This document shows positions 425 through 12,560 of a DNA stretch of 12,560 nucleotides, piece by piece. The position numbers and the translations under genes are program-made. How positions within the stretch are numbered: position 1 is the first letter of the stretch; each line of letters starts with the position of its first letter. Below the pieces are notes generated by a model. It was given only the letters and a program-made list of their open reading frames with translations. It had not been told where the DNA came from and did not search any database. Origin of the DNA: Candidatus Mcinerneyibacteriota bacterium (GTDB lineage: Bacteria; AUK180; JAQVHJ01); the NCBI GenBank assembly GCA_030630935.1, contig DAOVMD010000036.1, positions 1 to 12,560 on the forward strand. Reading direction: 5' to 3'.

Positions 425-2182
425 ATGGCAAAAAGACTCGGTGATATTTTAATAGAAAAGGGTATTATTACAGAGGCGGAGCTTCAGAAGGTTCTAGAGA
501 AGCAGAAGGAGAGTTCATTACCATTAGGCCGACTTTTATTAGAGGAGAATTACTGTAAAGAGGAGAATTTATTAGAAGCACTTTCAGAGCAATTGGGATT
601 GCCGATCATTCCATTAAAGGATTTTGAAATAGAGGAAGAGGTTATAAAGTTAATTTCATATCAATTATGTTTAAAATATAATATAGTTCCTGTTGATAAC
701 TTTGGTAATTCGGTAACTATTGCTACGAATGACCCACAAAATTTTGAAATGTTAGAGGCGGTCAAGTTTGCCACTGGTTTTGAAACAGAAGTAGTTCTTG
801 CGAAGTCTACCGAGATTGCGGAGGTTTTAGTAAGGATTGAGAAGGATTCGGATGAAGACAACAAGATGTCAGATATTATGGATGGTCTTGATGATACTAT
901 TGTTGAGGTTGTTGACACAGAAGAAGATGAACTCAATGAGTTTGAGTTATTACAGGCGAGTGATGATAAGCCTATTGTAAAGTTGGTTAATTCAATCATT
1001 TCCAATGCAGTCACCCGTCGAGCGTCCGATATTCACATTGAATCCTATGATGAGGATTATATCCGAATTCGTTACCGGATTGACGGTGTTTTGTATGAGG
1101 CGATGAAACGTTTACCGGCTAAGATTCGGAACTCGGTGGTAACTAGGATCAAGATTCTGGCAAAGTTGGATATTACTGACCGGAAGCGTCCTCAAGACGG
1201 TCGATTTCGAATGAGTTTAAAGGGTCGTTCGATTGACTTCCGATTATCTACGCTTCCAACCATTTATGGTGAGCGGATTATGATCCGGATTTTGGATAAG
1301 AAACACCAGGTTTTTCAACTTGATAAACTTGGTTTGGATGAAGAACAGGTAAGACGACTTCGAACAGTAATTAATATGCCCTGGGGTATGGTAATCATTG
1401 CCGGTCCGTCAGGTTGTGGAAAAACCACAACTCTCTATACAGCTTTGATGGATATTTATGCAGACGACACGAATATTATGACAGCAGAAAATCCTGTAGA
1501 ATTTGATTTTCCGGGAGTTAACCAAGTGAATACCAATGATGCGGTTAATCTTACATTTGCATCTGCACTTCGTTCTTTCTTACGCCAGGACCCCGATATA
1601 ATTATGGTTGGAGAGGTTAGAGATCAAGAGACTGGTGAGATAGCAATTAAAGCAGCTTTGACTGGGCACCTTGTTCTTACTTCACTTCATACAAATGACG
1701 CGCCGAGTGTTGTTTCGAGGTTAACTAATATGGGGGTTGAGCCTTTCATGATTGCAGCCGCTTTAATAGGTGCAGTCTCACAGCGGTTGATCAGACAGAT
1801 TTGTCCAAAATGTAAGGAGCCTACAGAAGTTACGCCCGAAGACTTTTTACAATTGGGTCTTAATCCAGATAAATACAGTGATGTTACAATATATAAAGGA
1901 AAGGGTTGTCCATATTGTGCTGATACTGGTTATTATAAAAGAACTGCGATATATGAAGTCATGCCTATTTCCAAGAAACTTCAAACCATGATAATTGACC
2001 ATGTTATAACTACAGAACTAATGACACAAGCTCGTTTGGAGGGGATGTCTACATTACGTGAAGCAGTAGTTGAAAAATGGCTTACCGGAGTTACAACTCT
2101 TGAAGAGATTTACAGACAGACGGTTGCTGACCCGCCTGAAACCAACCCGCATCCTGAAGATTTGGAGGATACAATAGTTTAG
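425..2182 (+). CDS. pilB: Type IV pilus assembly / type II secretion ATPase, PilB/GspE family
   Basis: This is a hexameric cytoplasmic ATPase that powers pilin polymerisation or pseudopilus extension. Residues 1-60 carry two MshEN-like motifs (RLGDILIEKG at 4-13 and LGRLLLEEN at 34-42), a module that binds c-di-GMP in MshE. An acidic linker (about 140-180) precedes the ATPase core: Walker A GPSGCGKT (327-334), Asp box AENPVEF (354-360), Walker B IIMVGE (392-397) and His box TGHLVLTSLHTN (413-424). Four cysteines (460, 463, 495, 498) form the zinc site typical of GspE/PilB. The 585-aa length is normal. The Walker A loop has Cys where Ser is more usual, and the C-terminus ends in an acidic tail. 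The stop codon is followed immediately by the aspS ATG. Choosing PilB over GspE is uncertain because no other pilus or secretion gene is present. Confidence 0.93.
   Translation: MAKRLGDILIEKGIITEAELQKVLEKQKESSLPLGRLLLEENYCKEENLLEALSEQLGLPIIPLKDFEIEEEVIKLISYQLCLKYNIVPVDNFGNSVTIATNDPQNFEMLEAVKFATGFETEVVLAKSTEIAEVLVRIEKDSDEDNKMSDIMDGLDDTIVEVVDTEEDELNEFELLQASDDKPIVKLVNSIISNAVTRRASDIHIESYDEDYIRIRYRIDGVLYEAMKRLPAKIRNSVVTRIKILAKLDITDRKRPQDGRFRMSLKGRSIDFRLSTLPTIYGERIMIRILDKKHQVFQLDKLGLDEEQVRRLRTVINMPWGMVIIAGPSGCGKTTTLYTALMDIYADDTNIMTAENPVEFDFPGVNQVNTNDAVNLTFASALRSFLRQDPDIIMVGEVRDQETGEIAIKAALTGHLVLTSLHTNDAPSVVSRLTNMGVEPFMIAAALIGAVSQRLIRQICPKCKEPTEVTPEDFLQLGLNPDKYSDVTIYKGKGCPYCADTGYYKRTAIYEVMPISKKLQTMIIDHVITTELMTQARLEGMSTLREAVVEKWLTGVTTLEEIYRQTVADPPETNPHPEDLEDTIV
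2164..2169 (+). promoter_or_regulatory. Ribosome binding site for aspS inside the pilB 3' end
   Basis: GGAGGA at 2164-2169 lies within the last codons of pilB, 13 nt before the aspS ATG at 2183. The spacing is long, and the pilB TAG directly abuts the ATG, so terminating ribosomes could also reinitiate. Confidence 0.5.
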
Positions 2183-7686: not shown

Positions 7687-9111
7687 ATGGTTAAGGAATA
7701 TAAAACCGCTCGAGAAGTAGTTGGACCTTTAATGTTAGTTGAGAAGGTTTCCGGTGTCAAGTACGAAGAACTGGTAGAGATCGAGCTTCAGTCCGGAGAG
7801 ATTCGCCACGGCAAGGTTCTGGAGATTGACAGGGACAGAGCTCTTGTTCAATTATTTGAAGGCGCTTCCGGGGTAAATGTATTTACAAGTAAAATTAGGT
7901 TTTTAGGTAAAGGCTTAGAAATTGGTTTATCTCAGGATATTCTTGGTCGGGTTTTTGATGGTCAAGGCAGACCAATTGATAAGGGTCCGGAGATCATTCC
8001 GGAAGTAAAGCTTGATATCAATGGGAGCCCCATTAATCCATACGCGAGAAATTATCCTTCGGAGTTTATTCAAACGGGAATTACCGGGATTGACGGGTTA
8101 AATACTCTTGTTCGTGGACAAAAACTTCCGATCTTCTCCGGTGCTGGTCTTCCTCACGCTCAAATGGCCGCTCAACTCGCCCGCCAATCATCAGTTGTGG
8201 GATCAAAAGAAGAGTTTGCAGTTGTTTTTGGGGCGATGGGAATTACTTTTGAGGAAGCAGATTTCTTTATTTCAGATTTCAAAAGGACAGGGGCAATTGA
8301 AAGGGCAGTTTTATTTATTAACCTGGCAAGTGACCCAGCGATTGAACGTATTGCATTACCACGGCTTGCATTAACTGCAGCTGAATACCTTGCTTTTGAA
8401 AAGGGTTACCATGTTCTTGTAATTTTAACTGACTTAACAAATTATTGTGAAGCATTACGTGAGATTTCTGCTGCACGAAAAGAGGTTCCCGGGCGAAGAG
8501 GTTATCCCGGATATATGTACACTGACCTATCAACTATTTATGAGCGCGCCGGTAGGATCAAAGGTAAATCCGGTTCAATAACCCAGATACCTATTCTCAC
8601 AATGCCGGAGGATGATAAAACGCATCCAGTCGCGGACTTAACAGGCTATATTACAGAAGGTCAGATAATCCTATCCCGATCTCTCCATAAAAAGAATATT
8701 TATCCGCCGATTGATGCTCAAGCATCTTTATCAAGGTTGAAGGATAAAGGGATTGGTGCCGGTAAAACAAGGGAAGATCATTCGGATTTATTTAATCAGT
8801 TATTTGCTGCTTATGCCCGGGGTTTAGAAGCCCGGGAACTATCGGTCATTCTCGGAGAAGGCGCACTTTCTAAAATGGATAAATTATACCTTATATTCGG
8901 AGATTATTTTGAAAGGAAATATATTAATCAAGGAGAAGAAGAAAATCGTACAATCAAAGAAACTCTTGATATTGGTTGGAAATTATTGGGTTTGTTGCCG
9001 AAGATTGAATTAAAGAGAGTCCGGGATGAATATATAGAAAAATATTTCAAGGCGACAACCGAGGAAGACCTACTGATTTATAGCGAAGAGAAATTCACAC
9101 AAAATATTTAA
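7687..9111 (+). CDS. atpB (vatB/ntpB): V-type ATP synthase/ATPase subunit B
   Basis: This is the non-catalytic regulatory subunit of the V1/A1 head, alternating with catalytic subunit A in a hexamer at the cytoplasmic face of the membrane. The 474-aa length is close to Thermus B (about 478). It has an N-terminal beta-barrel (1-75), then [20 protein letters not shown] (125-144) and SGAGLPHAQ (151-159), which replaces the canonical P-loop in B subunits, then the C-terminal helical domain. The degenerate P-loop separates it from subunit A, F1-beta and FliI. Subunit D follows after 11 bp, as in standard A-B-D gene order, but subunit A is absent directly upstream, where ybeY sits. Whether the enzyme pumps H+ or Na+ cannot be judged without subunit K. 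Confidence 0.96.
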
Positions 9112-9122
9112 CGGAGAACTTG

Positions 9123-9749
9123 ATGAAGATAAAAATTATCGCGACAAGAATGGAGCTTCTCCGGTTAAAGCGGAGGTTGGTTTTAGCAAAGAAAGGCCAT
9201 AAGCTCTTAAAAGAGAAACTTGAAGAATTGATGCGGCAATTTATTTTATGTGTAAATCGCTTTAAAGGAATCAGGGGAAATATTAAGGAATTACTTCAAA
9301 TTGGCCATCAGAATTTTGTGAAGGCGCGAGCCACCGTTCCGAAAGAATATATTGAATCTGCTTTAAGTGTGACGGATGCAAAAACTGAATTGAAATTGGA
9401 TTCTGCTTATATCTTAAATATCCAAATTCCCAAATTGAAAATTGAAGTAAAAGGAGACATTCATTCCTATGGTTTTAGAGATACGTCGGTATCTCTTGAT
9501 AAAGCGTTATCATCATATTATGAGGTATTTGAGGATATGATAAAGTTAGCTGAACTTGAAAAGACTATTTATTTAATTGCACTTGAAATAGAAAAAACCC
9601 GCCGTAGGGTTAATGCATTAGAATATATTCTTATTCCTAATATTGCTGATGCAATCAAAGTAATTTCTATGAAGTTAGACGAGCGTGAGCGTGCGAATTT
9701 AACAAGGTTAATGAAAATTAAAGATATTATCCAAAAAAGAAAACAATAA
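9123..9749 (+). CDS. atpD (vatD/ntpD): V-type ATP synthase/ATPase subunit D
   Basis: This is the central-stalk rotor subunit that turns inside the A3B3 head and couples it to the membrane ring. The N-terminus contains the family signature TRMELLRLKRRL followed by LAKKGHKLLKEK. A second long helix near the C-terminus (RRRVNALEYILIPNI, then DERERANLTRLMKIKD) completes the antiparallel coiled-coil typical of subunit D. The length of 208 aa is normal. An in-frame TTG sits at 9120, but ATG 9123 is preferred because GGAGA (9113-9117) is then 5 nt upstream. It follows vatB by 11 bp and is the last recognisable ATPase gene here. Confidence 0.94.
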   Translation: MKIKIIATRMELLRLKRRLVLAKKGHKLLKEKLEELMRQFILCVNRFKGIRGNIKELLQIGHQNFVKARATVPKEYIESALSVTDAKTELKLDSAYILNIQIPKLKIEVKGDIHSYGFRDTSVSLDKALSSYYEVFEDMIKLAELEKTIYLIALEIEKTRRRVNALEYILIPNIADAIKVISMKLDERERANLTRLMKIKDIIQKRKQ

Positions 9750-9761
9750 AAAGGGGATGCT

Positions 9762-10760
9762 ATGAGACTTCCAAGAAAAAAAATATTTATTGAAAATGTT
9801 AATCTGCTTTATATTGATATTCAAAAAATTATCCAGTTAAGCCAGACGGATCGCCGGGCAAAAATCGATGGTTACCTGTCAGTAATCTATCCCGGAGTTC
9901 AAGATATTATTTTTTTCCGAAAAGGTGAGATGATTAATGCTGGAACTTTTTCAGGTCAGGAGAAGAACCCTGTAAGTGTATTTAAAGCACTGGACAAGAT
10001 GAAGTTAAAAGATGATGATGGAGCTCTTTTTTATTCTGAAGTCGAAGAGGATTTATTAAAGCTCTTAATTGCTATATTTTATATTGAACCGAAACACAAG
10101 AACTTGAGTTCAAAATATACAAATATTCGAAAGCTATTTGAGGTAATTCAAAAGAATAAATTTGAAGGATTTCTTGAGTTTGATATTAATAACGGGTTAA
10201 ATTTTATTGAGTTCTCTGGTGAAATTCTGGGTGGGGCATATTTCTGTGATGATGTAGAAGAACCCCTGAGTGAGGTTTTGTCCAGGGGTGATGACCAGAT
10301 GATAATTGAAAGTGTAATTTCTCTAATTGAAAATTATGAAACAGAAGTTTTAGTTAATATCTACAATAAAGTTGATGAGTTTAAAGTTCAAGTTTCTCCT
10401 GCGCAGATTCAACTACTTGAGAAAGCCGTAAATTCAATCATTGAAGGTGTTTCAAAAGCAATCGGTGTGGCAAATACAGTAGATTATATAAAACTTTCTC
10501 TTGAAGAAGTAACGGCTAAATATTCATTCCTGAAAGATGTTGCTCTGACTGAAAATTCTTGTGTTCTCGAGAAGGTTTTTGCAGAACCTGAAATGTTCAT
10601 TAAAAGTATAGCTGAATGGATAAATAATTTTATTGATAAAGCAAGTTTGTCTTTAGGGGAAAAGACATTTGAAGTAACTTTTAATTGTATTAAAGATATG
10701 AGATTTGCACTTGAGAAATTACATTTCTTTAATTATTCTTACTTGAAATCAATGCTATAA
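9762..10760 (+). CDS. Hypothetical protein with two DUF4388/PATAN-like repeats
   Basis: I do not recognise this 332-aa protein at family level. Two segments resemble each other in pattern: residues about 12-62 (ending IIFFRKGEMINAGTF) and about 121-163 (LFEVIQKNKFEGFLEFD, then IEFSGEILGGAYF). Each shows a helix, then a GxL beta-strand, then a hydrophobic strand, 'G-E-I/M' turn and a short Ala/Gly-rich strand, as in DUF4388/PATAN domains of bacterial signalling proteins. The rest (about 165-332) is predicted mainly helical and acidic. There is no signal peptide, membrane helix or Cys cluster, so it is probably cytosolic. An SD (AAGGGGAT, 9751-9758) precedes the ATG. It lies 12 bp after vatD, and its TAA overlaps the next ATG by 1 nt, tying its expression to the radical SAM gene. 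The domain assignment is weak. Confidence 0.75.
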   Translation: MRLPRKKIFIENVNLLYIDIQKIIQLSQTDRRAKIDGYLSVIYPGVQDIIFFRKGEMINAGTFSGQEKNPVSVFKALDKMKLKDDDGALFYSEVEEDLLKLLIAIFYIEPKHKNLSSKYTNIRKLFEVIQKNKFEGFLEFDINNGLNFIEFSGEILGGAYFCDDVEEPLSEVLSRGDDQMIIESVISLIENYETEVLVNIYNKVDEFKVQVSPAQIQLLEKAVNSIIEGVSKAIGVANTVDYIKLSLEEVTAKYSFLKDVALTENSCVLEKVFAEPEMFIKSIAEWINNFIDKASLSLGEKTFEVTFNCIKDMRFALEKLHFFNYSYLKSML

Positions 10761-12019
10761 TGTTTTTTAAGTTATTTTTATTTCTAATGCCACGAAAAGT
10801 CAAAGAGTTTTTTAAGAAATTAATAAAGAATATATTAAGAGACGAGTTCGACAAGAAATATCTGCCGGAAGTAGAAATGAAAATTGATCGAACAGAGCAG
10901 AAACTTTTTCATCAAATTAAGAACCAGAATTTTCAACTTTCAAAATTAGCAGTCACAGATAAGAATTCCAAAATACAACATTATCCCCTGTCAGTTTATT
11001 TAGAGACATCCTTAAAATGTAATTTAAAATGTATCATGTGTCCGGGACATTCTTTTAACAAAGAAGATAAAACAAAAGGACAAGATTTCGGAATACTCTC
11101 CCCAGAAATATTTAAGAAGATAACACCCTTATTCCCGTATTTGGATAGATGTATTTTGTCCGGAGACGGAGAACCTTTTTTGAATATGCACTTATTAAAA
11201 TATTTAAAAGAACTAAAAAGACATCAAATATTTGTAGGTTTTATTACTAATGGAATTCTTTTGAAAAAAGAGACGGCAACTAAATTAATTGAATTGGGGG
11301 TTGATCAAATTACCTTTTCCATTGATAGTCTTGAAAAAGAACTTTATGAAAAAATACGAGTAAATGCAAAGTTTGAAATTTTAATGGAAAATATAAAGTA
11401 CCTTTTCTCTGAGAAAGAGAGGTTGAACGGTTTGAAAACGAATATAACGATTGCAGCAGTTTTAATGCGAAGCAATTATAAGGAGATGAGAAAATTTATT
11501 AAATTTGCAAGTGACTGGGGAATTAATCAGGTTCTTTTTAATCCTTTAATCCGATATCCAGATGATAGATATCTTCGTTTTTATGATGATAATTGCTTGA
11601 CTGAAGAAAACTTACAGAATCTTAAAACAGAGATTCCGGATTTAATTGATTATAGCAGGAAGTTGAGAGTGGATTTTGTTTTAGCTTTTTTCCCCGGAAT
11701 TCGAGATCTCCCGGAAAGAAAAAAATTTAAAGGAGACATCATCTGTTCGGAGCCATGGACTACTATGTTTATAACCTGGGATGGACATGTAAGAACCTGC
11801 TGTTTAAATGAAACATCTCTGGGTTTTTTAAAAGAAGATTCAATTGAAAATATTTGGTTTTCTAAAAAATATCAAGATTTAAGAGATGAAATTACTTCGG
11901 GGAAAATTGTAAATCCTTTTTGTGTGAATTGTATAAAAACTTCAAGACAGGATTTTATTATTAATGAGATTGAAAAGATATTATTTTCTATGCGGGAGTT
12001 TTTAGAACAAACTTGGTGA
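10760..12019 (+). CDS. Radical SAM protein with SPASM-type auxiliary cluster domain
   Basis: This is a predicted [4Fe-4S] enzyme that cleaves S-adenosylmethionine to start radical chemistry; the substrate is unknown. Of 419 aa, residues 1-70 are a basic, partly hydrophobic N-terminal extension (MFFKLFLFLMPRKVKEFFKK) that may contact membrane or partner. The radical SAM barrel starts with Cys87, Cys91 and Cys94 (CNLKCIMC), then SGDGEPF (134-140), FITNGILL and QITFSIDS. The C-terminal SPASM/Twitch-like region has Cys329, WDGHVRTCC (Cys347, Cys348), ENIW (363-366) and Cys388/Cys391 (CVNC), the pattern of an auxiliary Fe-S cluster. SPASM enzymes often modify peptides or proteins, but no small precursor gene is visible. 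The ATG overlaps the upstream stop by 1 nt (TAATG) with no SD, so translation is probably coupled. An in-frame ATG at 10787 is a less likely alternative. Confidence 0.92.
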   Translation: MFFKLFLFLMPRKVKEFFKKLIKNILRDEFDKKYLPEVEMKIDRTEQKLFHQIKNQNFQLSKLAVTDKNSKIQHYPLSVYLETSLKCNLKCIMCPGHSFNKEDKTKGQDFGILSPEIFKKITPLFPYLDRCILSGDGEPFLNMHLLKYLKELKRHQIFVGFITNGILLKKETATKLIELGVDQITFSIDSLEKELYEKIRVNAKFEILMENIKYLFSEKERLNGLKTNITIAAVLMRSNYKEMRKFIKFASDWGINQVLFNPLIRYPDDRYLRFYDDNCLTEENLQNLKTEIPDLIDYSRKLRVDFVLAFFPGIRDLPERKKFKGDIICSEPWTTMFITWDGHVRTCCLNETSLGFLKEDSIENIWFSKKYQDLRDEITSGKIVNPFCVNCIKTSRQDFIINEIEKILFSMREFLEQTW

Positions 12020-12560
12020 CTTCAGCAAGCTTTTCTGAGAATATTATAAAATCCTCACTCCTCAATCCTGCAATTCCAAGGTATATATGCGGTTTATTCT
12101 CTCCGTGAAAATCTGATCCACCAGTGATAATCAAAGAATTATTAGAAGCAAGTGTTATCAACTGTGAGATATATTCTTCTGAATGTGAAGGGTAGTATGC
12201 TTCAATTCCTAAAATACCAACTTCAATAGCTTCACGAATTATCTTTTCCCTGATCTTTTCTTCAATTAAACCGGGATGTGCAAGGACAGGCATTCCTCCC
12301 CACTCAAGAACCTTTTTTATTAGAAATTGATGAGAATGCCTTTCTTTCTTTTCATAGATGGGAGCATCTTTCCTCAGGTATTTTACAAATGCTTCCTTAA
12401 CTGTTGAGACATACCCTTTTTTTAACATTGCTGCTGCAAGGTGTGGCCTTCCAACTGCACCTTTATCGCCTTGCTTCTCTACTAAAACTTCTTCGACCGA
12501 AACAGGAATTCCAAACTCGTTCGTTTTTTTACACATTTTAACAATTGCATTCATTCTATG
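11988..12560 (-). CDS. PHP-domain phosphoesterase, TrpH/RNase AM-like (5' part outside window)
   Basis: The C-terminal 190 residues or so of a metal-dependent PHP phosphoesterase are present; relatives include E. coli YciV/RNase AM, a 5'-3' exonuclease. Visible motifs are GRPHLA, PVLAHPG, GIEAYYPSHS and GGSDFHG, all metal-binding or family signatures. The reading frame stays open to the window edge (two codons, His-Arg, before the ATG at 12552-12554). Full family members have about 280 aa with an N-terminal HxHxxxSDG motif, which is not in the window, so the real start lies beyond 12560. The stop at 11988-11990 lies inside the radical SAM gene, giving a 32-bp tail-to-tail overlap. It is on the opposite strand and belongs to another transcription unit. 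Confidence 0.9.
   Translation of the reverse strand, partial: HRMNAIVKMCKKTNEFGIPVSVEEVLVEKQGDKGAVGRPHLAAAMLKKGYVSTVKEAFVKYLRKDAPIYEKKERHSHQFLIKKVLEWGGMPVLAHPGLIEEKIREKIIREAIEVGILGIEAYYPSHSEEYISQLITLASNNSLIITGGSDFHGENKPHIYLGIAGLRSEDFIIFSEKLAEVTKFVLKTPA

Follow-up and report, generated by a model that had tools for sequence, protein, structure and literature searches.

X332, a remotely PATAN-like protein encoded behind vatD in one bacterial class and mostly upstream of rsmI outside it

Introduction

The DNA studied here (the window, 12,560 nucleotides in its whole length) carries a gene for a protein of 332 amino acids, termed X332, between the V-ATPase genes vatB-vatD and a gene for a radical SAM/SPASM enzyme. 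Its position raises the question of whether X332 belongs functionally to the ATPase, to the enzyme or to neither. An earlier note had regarded X332 as DUF4388-like and, from a TAATG start-stop overlap, as a coupled partner of the enzyme, the pair forming a possible modification system tied to the V-ATPase. DUF4388 (PF14332) is the PATAN domain, known from Synechocystis PixG and PixE and from Anabaena PatA. PATAN domains are protein-binding adaptors. In cyanobacteria, those found in response regulators bind to PilB, the motor ATPase of pili (PMC10519157), and PilB binding was proposed for PixE (PMC7690835). PATAN genes also occur near homologs of MglA and MglB (PMC4316618).

Results

The identities of the two ATPase genes are certain. 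vatB (positions 7687-9111, forward strand) encodes the 474-aa subunit B of a V/A-type ATPase, matches NF003235 at 775 bits (E 1.7e-233) in a profile search and contains the domains ATP-synt_ab and ATP-synt_VA_C. vatD (9120-9749, forward strand, starting with TTG at 9120 or ATG at 9123) encodes the central shaft subunit D (PF01813, 171 bits, E 2.6e-50). After a gap of 12 nt and preceded by the ribosome-binding site AAGGGG follows X332 (9762-10760, forward strand), a gene delineated by its open reading frame, the gene position of its orthologs and a structural model. The 419-aa enzyme is annotated at 10760-12019 on the same strand, and the stop codon of X332 and this start literally read TAATG. 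The open reading frames, coordinates, gap and junction given by the earlier note were thereby confirmed, as were its identifications of vatB, vatD and the enzyme, whose radical SAM and SPASM domains score far above their cut-offs.

The TAATG junction had been taken as a mark of partnership, a reading weakened by comparison with the sister genus (G001), in which the corresponding genes are separated by 30 nt and the start codon of the enzyme gene aligns with Met10, the second methionine of the window's reading frame, at position 10787. For these reasons the junction is not conserved and perhaps does not contain the true start; from the alignment, 10787 is the likelier start and would leave 26 nt behind X332. 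The earlier note was right that no precursor peptide is encoded here: the gaps between vatD, X332 and the enzyme gene (12 nt and 0-26 nt) offer no room for one, and the 3' end of the enzyme gene is overlapped by a convergent gene. The latter (11988-12554, reverse strand, overlap of 32 nt) encodes a product that resembles, by eye, the C-terminal part of a PHP-type phosphoesterase and has no significant Pfam match. In the sister genus an ortholog of this gene also converges on the radical SAM gene.

X332 is predicted to consist of two alpha/beta units and a helical C-terminus (mean pLDDT 89.4, model from seven sequences). Unit 1 (aa 1-118, 9762-10115, forward strand) is composed of a helix, three strands, a helix and a strand and bears a remote likeness to DUF4388/PATAN. 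Unit 2 (aa 120-207, 10119-10382, forward strand) is similar, with helices 163-175 and 178-191 preceding its last strand; the two units were aligned to each other by hhalign with a probability of 81% (E 1.3e-5). The C-terminal helical region (aa 205-332, 10374-10757, forward strand) ends in a tail conserved in the class, FFxxSYxKSxL.

The likeness to DUF4388 proposed by the earlier note holds at a distance. The core of PATAN domains, a helix, three strands, a helical insertion and a strand, fits both X332 units as far as the predicted order of elements is concerned, and both units carry a motif of the type GxLxV...F..G.I..A. In contrast to PATAN response regulators, X332 has two units per chain, no CheY receiver domain and an added helical C-terminal region. 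Against PF14332 it reached only 15.1 bits, below the cut-off of 25, and no more than three of nine relatives gave a DUF4388 match even at E <= 1. Genuine DUF4388 proteins are encoded separately in the same genomes; in profile-profile comparisons with their domains, unit 2 matched weakly (60%, E 8e-5, 36 columns) and unit 1 at 28%. Because the curated Pfam cut-off was missed, we call X332 remotely PATAN-like from its sequence, and not a PATAN member. DUF835 was considered for the C-terminus and dropped (14.1 bits, cut-off 33.1). Foldseek searches with the whole X332 model and the C-terminal region yielded nothing convincing (best E 4e-3, a DNA clamp with TM 0.14). The best hits in a VIA fold search with the same two queries (Z 4.9 and 5.2) lay within background, which does not imply a new fold. 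An X332 profile found no relatives among PDB sequences.

The position behind vatD was analyzed in seven genomes of the window's class, which represent six genera and two families (G000 and G001 in one, G002 to G006 in the other). All seven have X332 as the gene immediately following vatD. The reading frames of the two genes overlap in the second family, by 14 nt in G002, G003, G005 and G006 and by 4 nt in G004, and in G002, G003, G004 and G006 the genes for V-ATPase subunits I, K, E, C, A, B and D stand together just ahead of X332. The genome of the window (G000; 80% complete, 471 contigs) has a split V-ATPase operon. Here H-I-K-E-C-F-A is located on another contig (C276, locus L019, 5067-11586) and vatB-vatD-X332 in the window (7687-9749 for the two ATPase genes), after pilB, aspS, phoH, an HD-domain gene and ybeY. 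vatB, vatD and X332 have thus stayed together despite the location of the other V1/Vo genes on another contig. On C276 a gene for a PrsW-like protease follows and overlaps the end of vatA. A link of X332 to the pilB gene of the window (425-2182), suggested by the binding of PATAN domains to PilB, was rejected, as the other family does not have pilB in the vicinity of X332.

Every class genome harbors two vatD genes and one X332 gene, which adjoins only one of them. At the second vatD locus, read in G000, G001, G002 and G005, other genes come after vatD. This second, divergent V-ATPase operon ends in all four genomes with a protein of about 145 amino acids, for which no family match was found in G000. 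In G001, G002 and G005 it also encodes an IIA-like protein, of which the G001 copy matches fructose-PTS IIA, a hint of a further regulator associated with the V-ATPase.

Relatives of X332 were sought with a profile, first in 386 genomes and subsequently in three phyla. Many full-length relatives were found outside the class and, as in the class, each genome has a single copy. The gene directly downstream is the ribosome-modifying gene rsmI at 41 of the 44 loci, in at least three phyla; the remaining three loci, all from one phylum, lack an adjoining rsmI. These rsmI-linked relatives (e.g. L175, L185 and L188) share the length and motifs of X332 and differ in gene position: they precede rsmI directly, whereas X332 follows vatD. 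None of the 44 loci has vatD, vatB or this radical SAM gene beside the X332 relative. The conserved place in a V-ATPase operon therefore applies to 7/7 loci inside the class and 0/44 outside, and of the tie to vatB-vatD that the earlier note had drawn, the part that concerns this class stands. Within the class rsmI is located elsewhere, and no X332 adjoins it in the four genomes read. The range of the family also exceeds that of the V-ATPase, as three near-complete genomes (G067, G208 and G338, 99-100% complete) carry X332 without a V-ATPase subunit D. Since relatives adjoin rsmI and occur without subunit D, the basic function of the X332 family is not V-ATPase-specific.

A phylogenetic tree built from 51 X332 sequences groups the seven vatD-linked proteins into a single clade (support 1.0); rsmI-linked relatives branch on either side of the midpoint root of the tree. 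The most parsimonious interpretation is that the gene relocated once from rsmI to vatD, in the common ancestor of the class.

Two further observations concern the surroundings of the relatives. In several genomes outside the class, genes for a phosphatidylinositol-phosphate-synthase-like protein and an inositol-phosphate synthase come after rsmI (L017, L055, L056, L057, L060 and L061). At L062 (G370:C22, 7379-10845) a distant X332-like protein is encoded near two roadblock-like proteins and an MglA-like GTPase, as judged by eye, a setting that fits the known association of PATAN with MglA.

The enzyme belongs to the radical SAM (PF04055, 70.3 bits, cut-off 29.5, E 2.8e-19) and SPASM families (PF13186, residues 329-391, 48.4 bits, cut-off 21.5, E 1.2e-12). 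Its CxxxCxxC cluster motif (C87, C91 and C94; 11018-11041, forward strand) is invariant in the ortholog from the sister genus, which also conserves the cysteines of the SPASM region (C329, C347/C348, C388 and C391; 11744-11932, forward strand). The latter could bind one auxiliary iron-sulfur cluster. The best NCBIfam matches were TIGR04317, a tungsten-cofactor oxidoreductase radical SAM maturase (E 2.3e-39, 135.5 bits, cut-off 380), and TIGR04311, a putative radical SAM/SPASM metalloenzyme maturase (E 3.8e-38, 131.6 bits, cut-off 400). The enzyme is far below both cut-offs and not a member of either family; its ortholog likewise falls below them, and no tungsten oxidoreductase gene is among the annotated genes of the window. 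No named equivalog family was matched above its cut-off; the earlier note had counted membership in a known family of unrelated substrate as evidence against its proposal. No relatives of the enzyme were found among PDB sequences, and the literature searched yielded nothing relevant on radical SAM genes in V-ATPase operons.

Among 51 X332 loci, the radical SAM gene comes after X332 in just two, those of G000 and G001, which represent two genera of the window's own family. Among 32 related SPASM sequences the two enzymes form a single, fully supported clade (support 1.0), and are therefore orthologs. They are only 43% identical and have diverged far faster than X332 (81%), VatD (86%) and VatB (91%) of the same two genomes. 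The association of X332 with this enzyme is a local and late one, and the enzyme is probably not a general partner of X332. A survey of gene neighbourhoods, proposed as a check by the earlier note, has thus spoken against this adjacency and, within the class, for that with vatB and vatD. It is rather probable that the enzyme is an unrelated acquisition of this family, a passenger at the operon end that acts on a small molecule or some other protein. Its absence from the X332 locus of the other family, its fast divergence and its nearest relatives in other phyla, scattered stand-alone SPASM proteins of which some have glycosyltransferase-rich surroundings, argue for such an origin, although the same place has been kept in two genera. 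A passenger enzyme would be compatible with either of the two roles considered for X332 below.

Discussion

Within the class the V-ATPase link of X332 is real, and its confinement to the class may reflect a single relocation. From the order of the genes we infer, with a probability of roughly 40%, that X332 binds V1 there as a lineage-specific accessory or regulatory protein. X332 would be a cytoplasmic, probably non-enzymatic adaptor in which two PATAN-like units are followed by a helical C-terminal region. Its gene, normally located directly upstream of rsmI, would have moved behind vatD in the class ancestor and remained at this place in one of the two V/A-ATPase operons, where the frames of vatD and X332 overlap in one family. 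Synthesis of X332 may be coordinated with that of subunits B and D. The binding site of the protein would then be the head or shaft of V1, comparable to the attachment of cyanobacterial PATAN domains to the motor ATPase PilB. The gene for the radical SAM/SPASM enzyme would have joined later and in one family only, any link of it to X332 or the ATPase being hypothetical. By analogy with the PilB binding of PATAN domains and the location of PATAN genes close to homologs of MglA and MglB, an adaptor role is likely for X332, and contact with a different motor ATPase is conceivable.

An alternative, to which we assign the same probability, is that X332 still performs the housekeeping function that it has in its rsmI context, be it in translation, in MglA/roadblock-type regulation or elsewhere, and that its position behind vatD serves coordinated expression without contact to the V-ATPase. 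The linkage of 41 of 44 relatives to rsmI points in this direction, as do the X332 genomes devoid of subunit D and the known location of PATAN proteins near MglA and MglB homologs (PMC4316618). In addition, X332 is a single-copy gene, and therefore the same gene serves in the rsmI and vatD contexts. However, an unchanged function does not readily account for the invariable position behind vatD in the class, with reading frames overlapping in one family, nor for the missing X332 beside rsmI in the class genomes read.

That the enzyme modifies X332 or a V-ATPase subunit, as the earlier note proposed, is unlikely. The gene order kept in two genera, the orthology of the enzymes and their intact cluster-binding cysteines are consistent with a modification system. 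Moreover, X332 contains C267 and C309 in both enzyme-carrying genomes and nowhere else in the class, and VatB and VatD of these genomes have no family-specific cysteines of this kind. This pattern, however, stems from a single lineage and proves nothing, and SPASM proteins act on many other substrates too. The rarity of the adjacency, the non-conserved junction with its doubtful start and the low identity of the enzymes relative to X332 also stand against such a system, and a tie of it to the V-ATPase fits poorly with relatives that adjoin rsmI or occur in genomes without subunit D. The scenario that combines both ideas, in which a V/A-ATPase operon of one class captured a PATAN-like adaptor from a widespread family, which became a new accessory or regulatory subunit of one of the two V-ATPases and in one family is modified by the gained radical SAM enzyme, possibly at the family-specific cysteines, is very improbable.

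The striking start-stop overlap in one genome need not mark partners. The most informative result is the linkage to rsmI outside the class. It presents X332 as an uncurated, single-copy protein family that is strongly linked to rsmI across several phyla and has switched once, in one class, to V-ATPase genes. If X332 binds the V-ATPase, as the preferred reading supposes, this ATPase would have a new, lineage-specific accessory factor, and the reach of PATAN-type adaptors would be widened beyond pilus motors to include a rotary motor.
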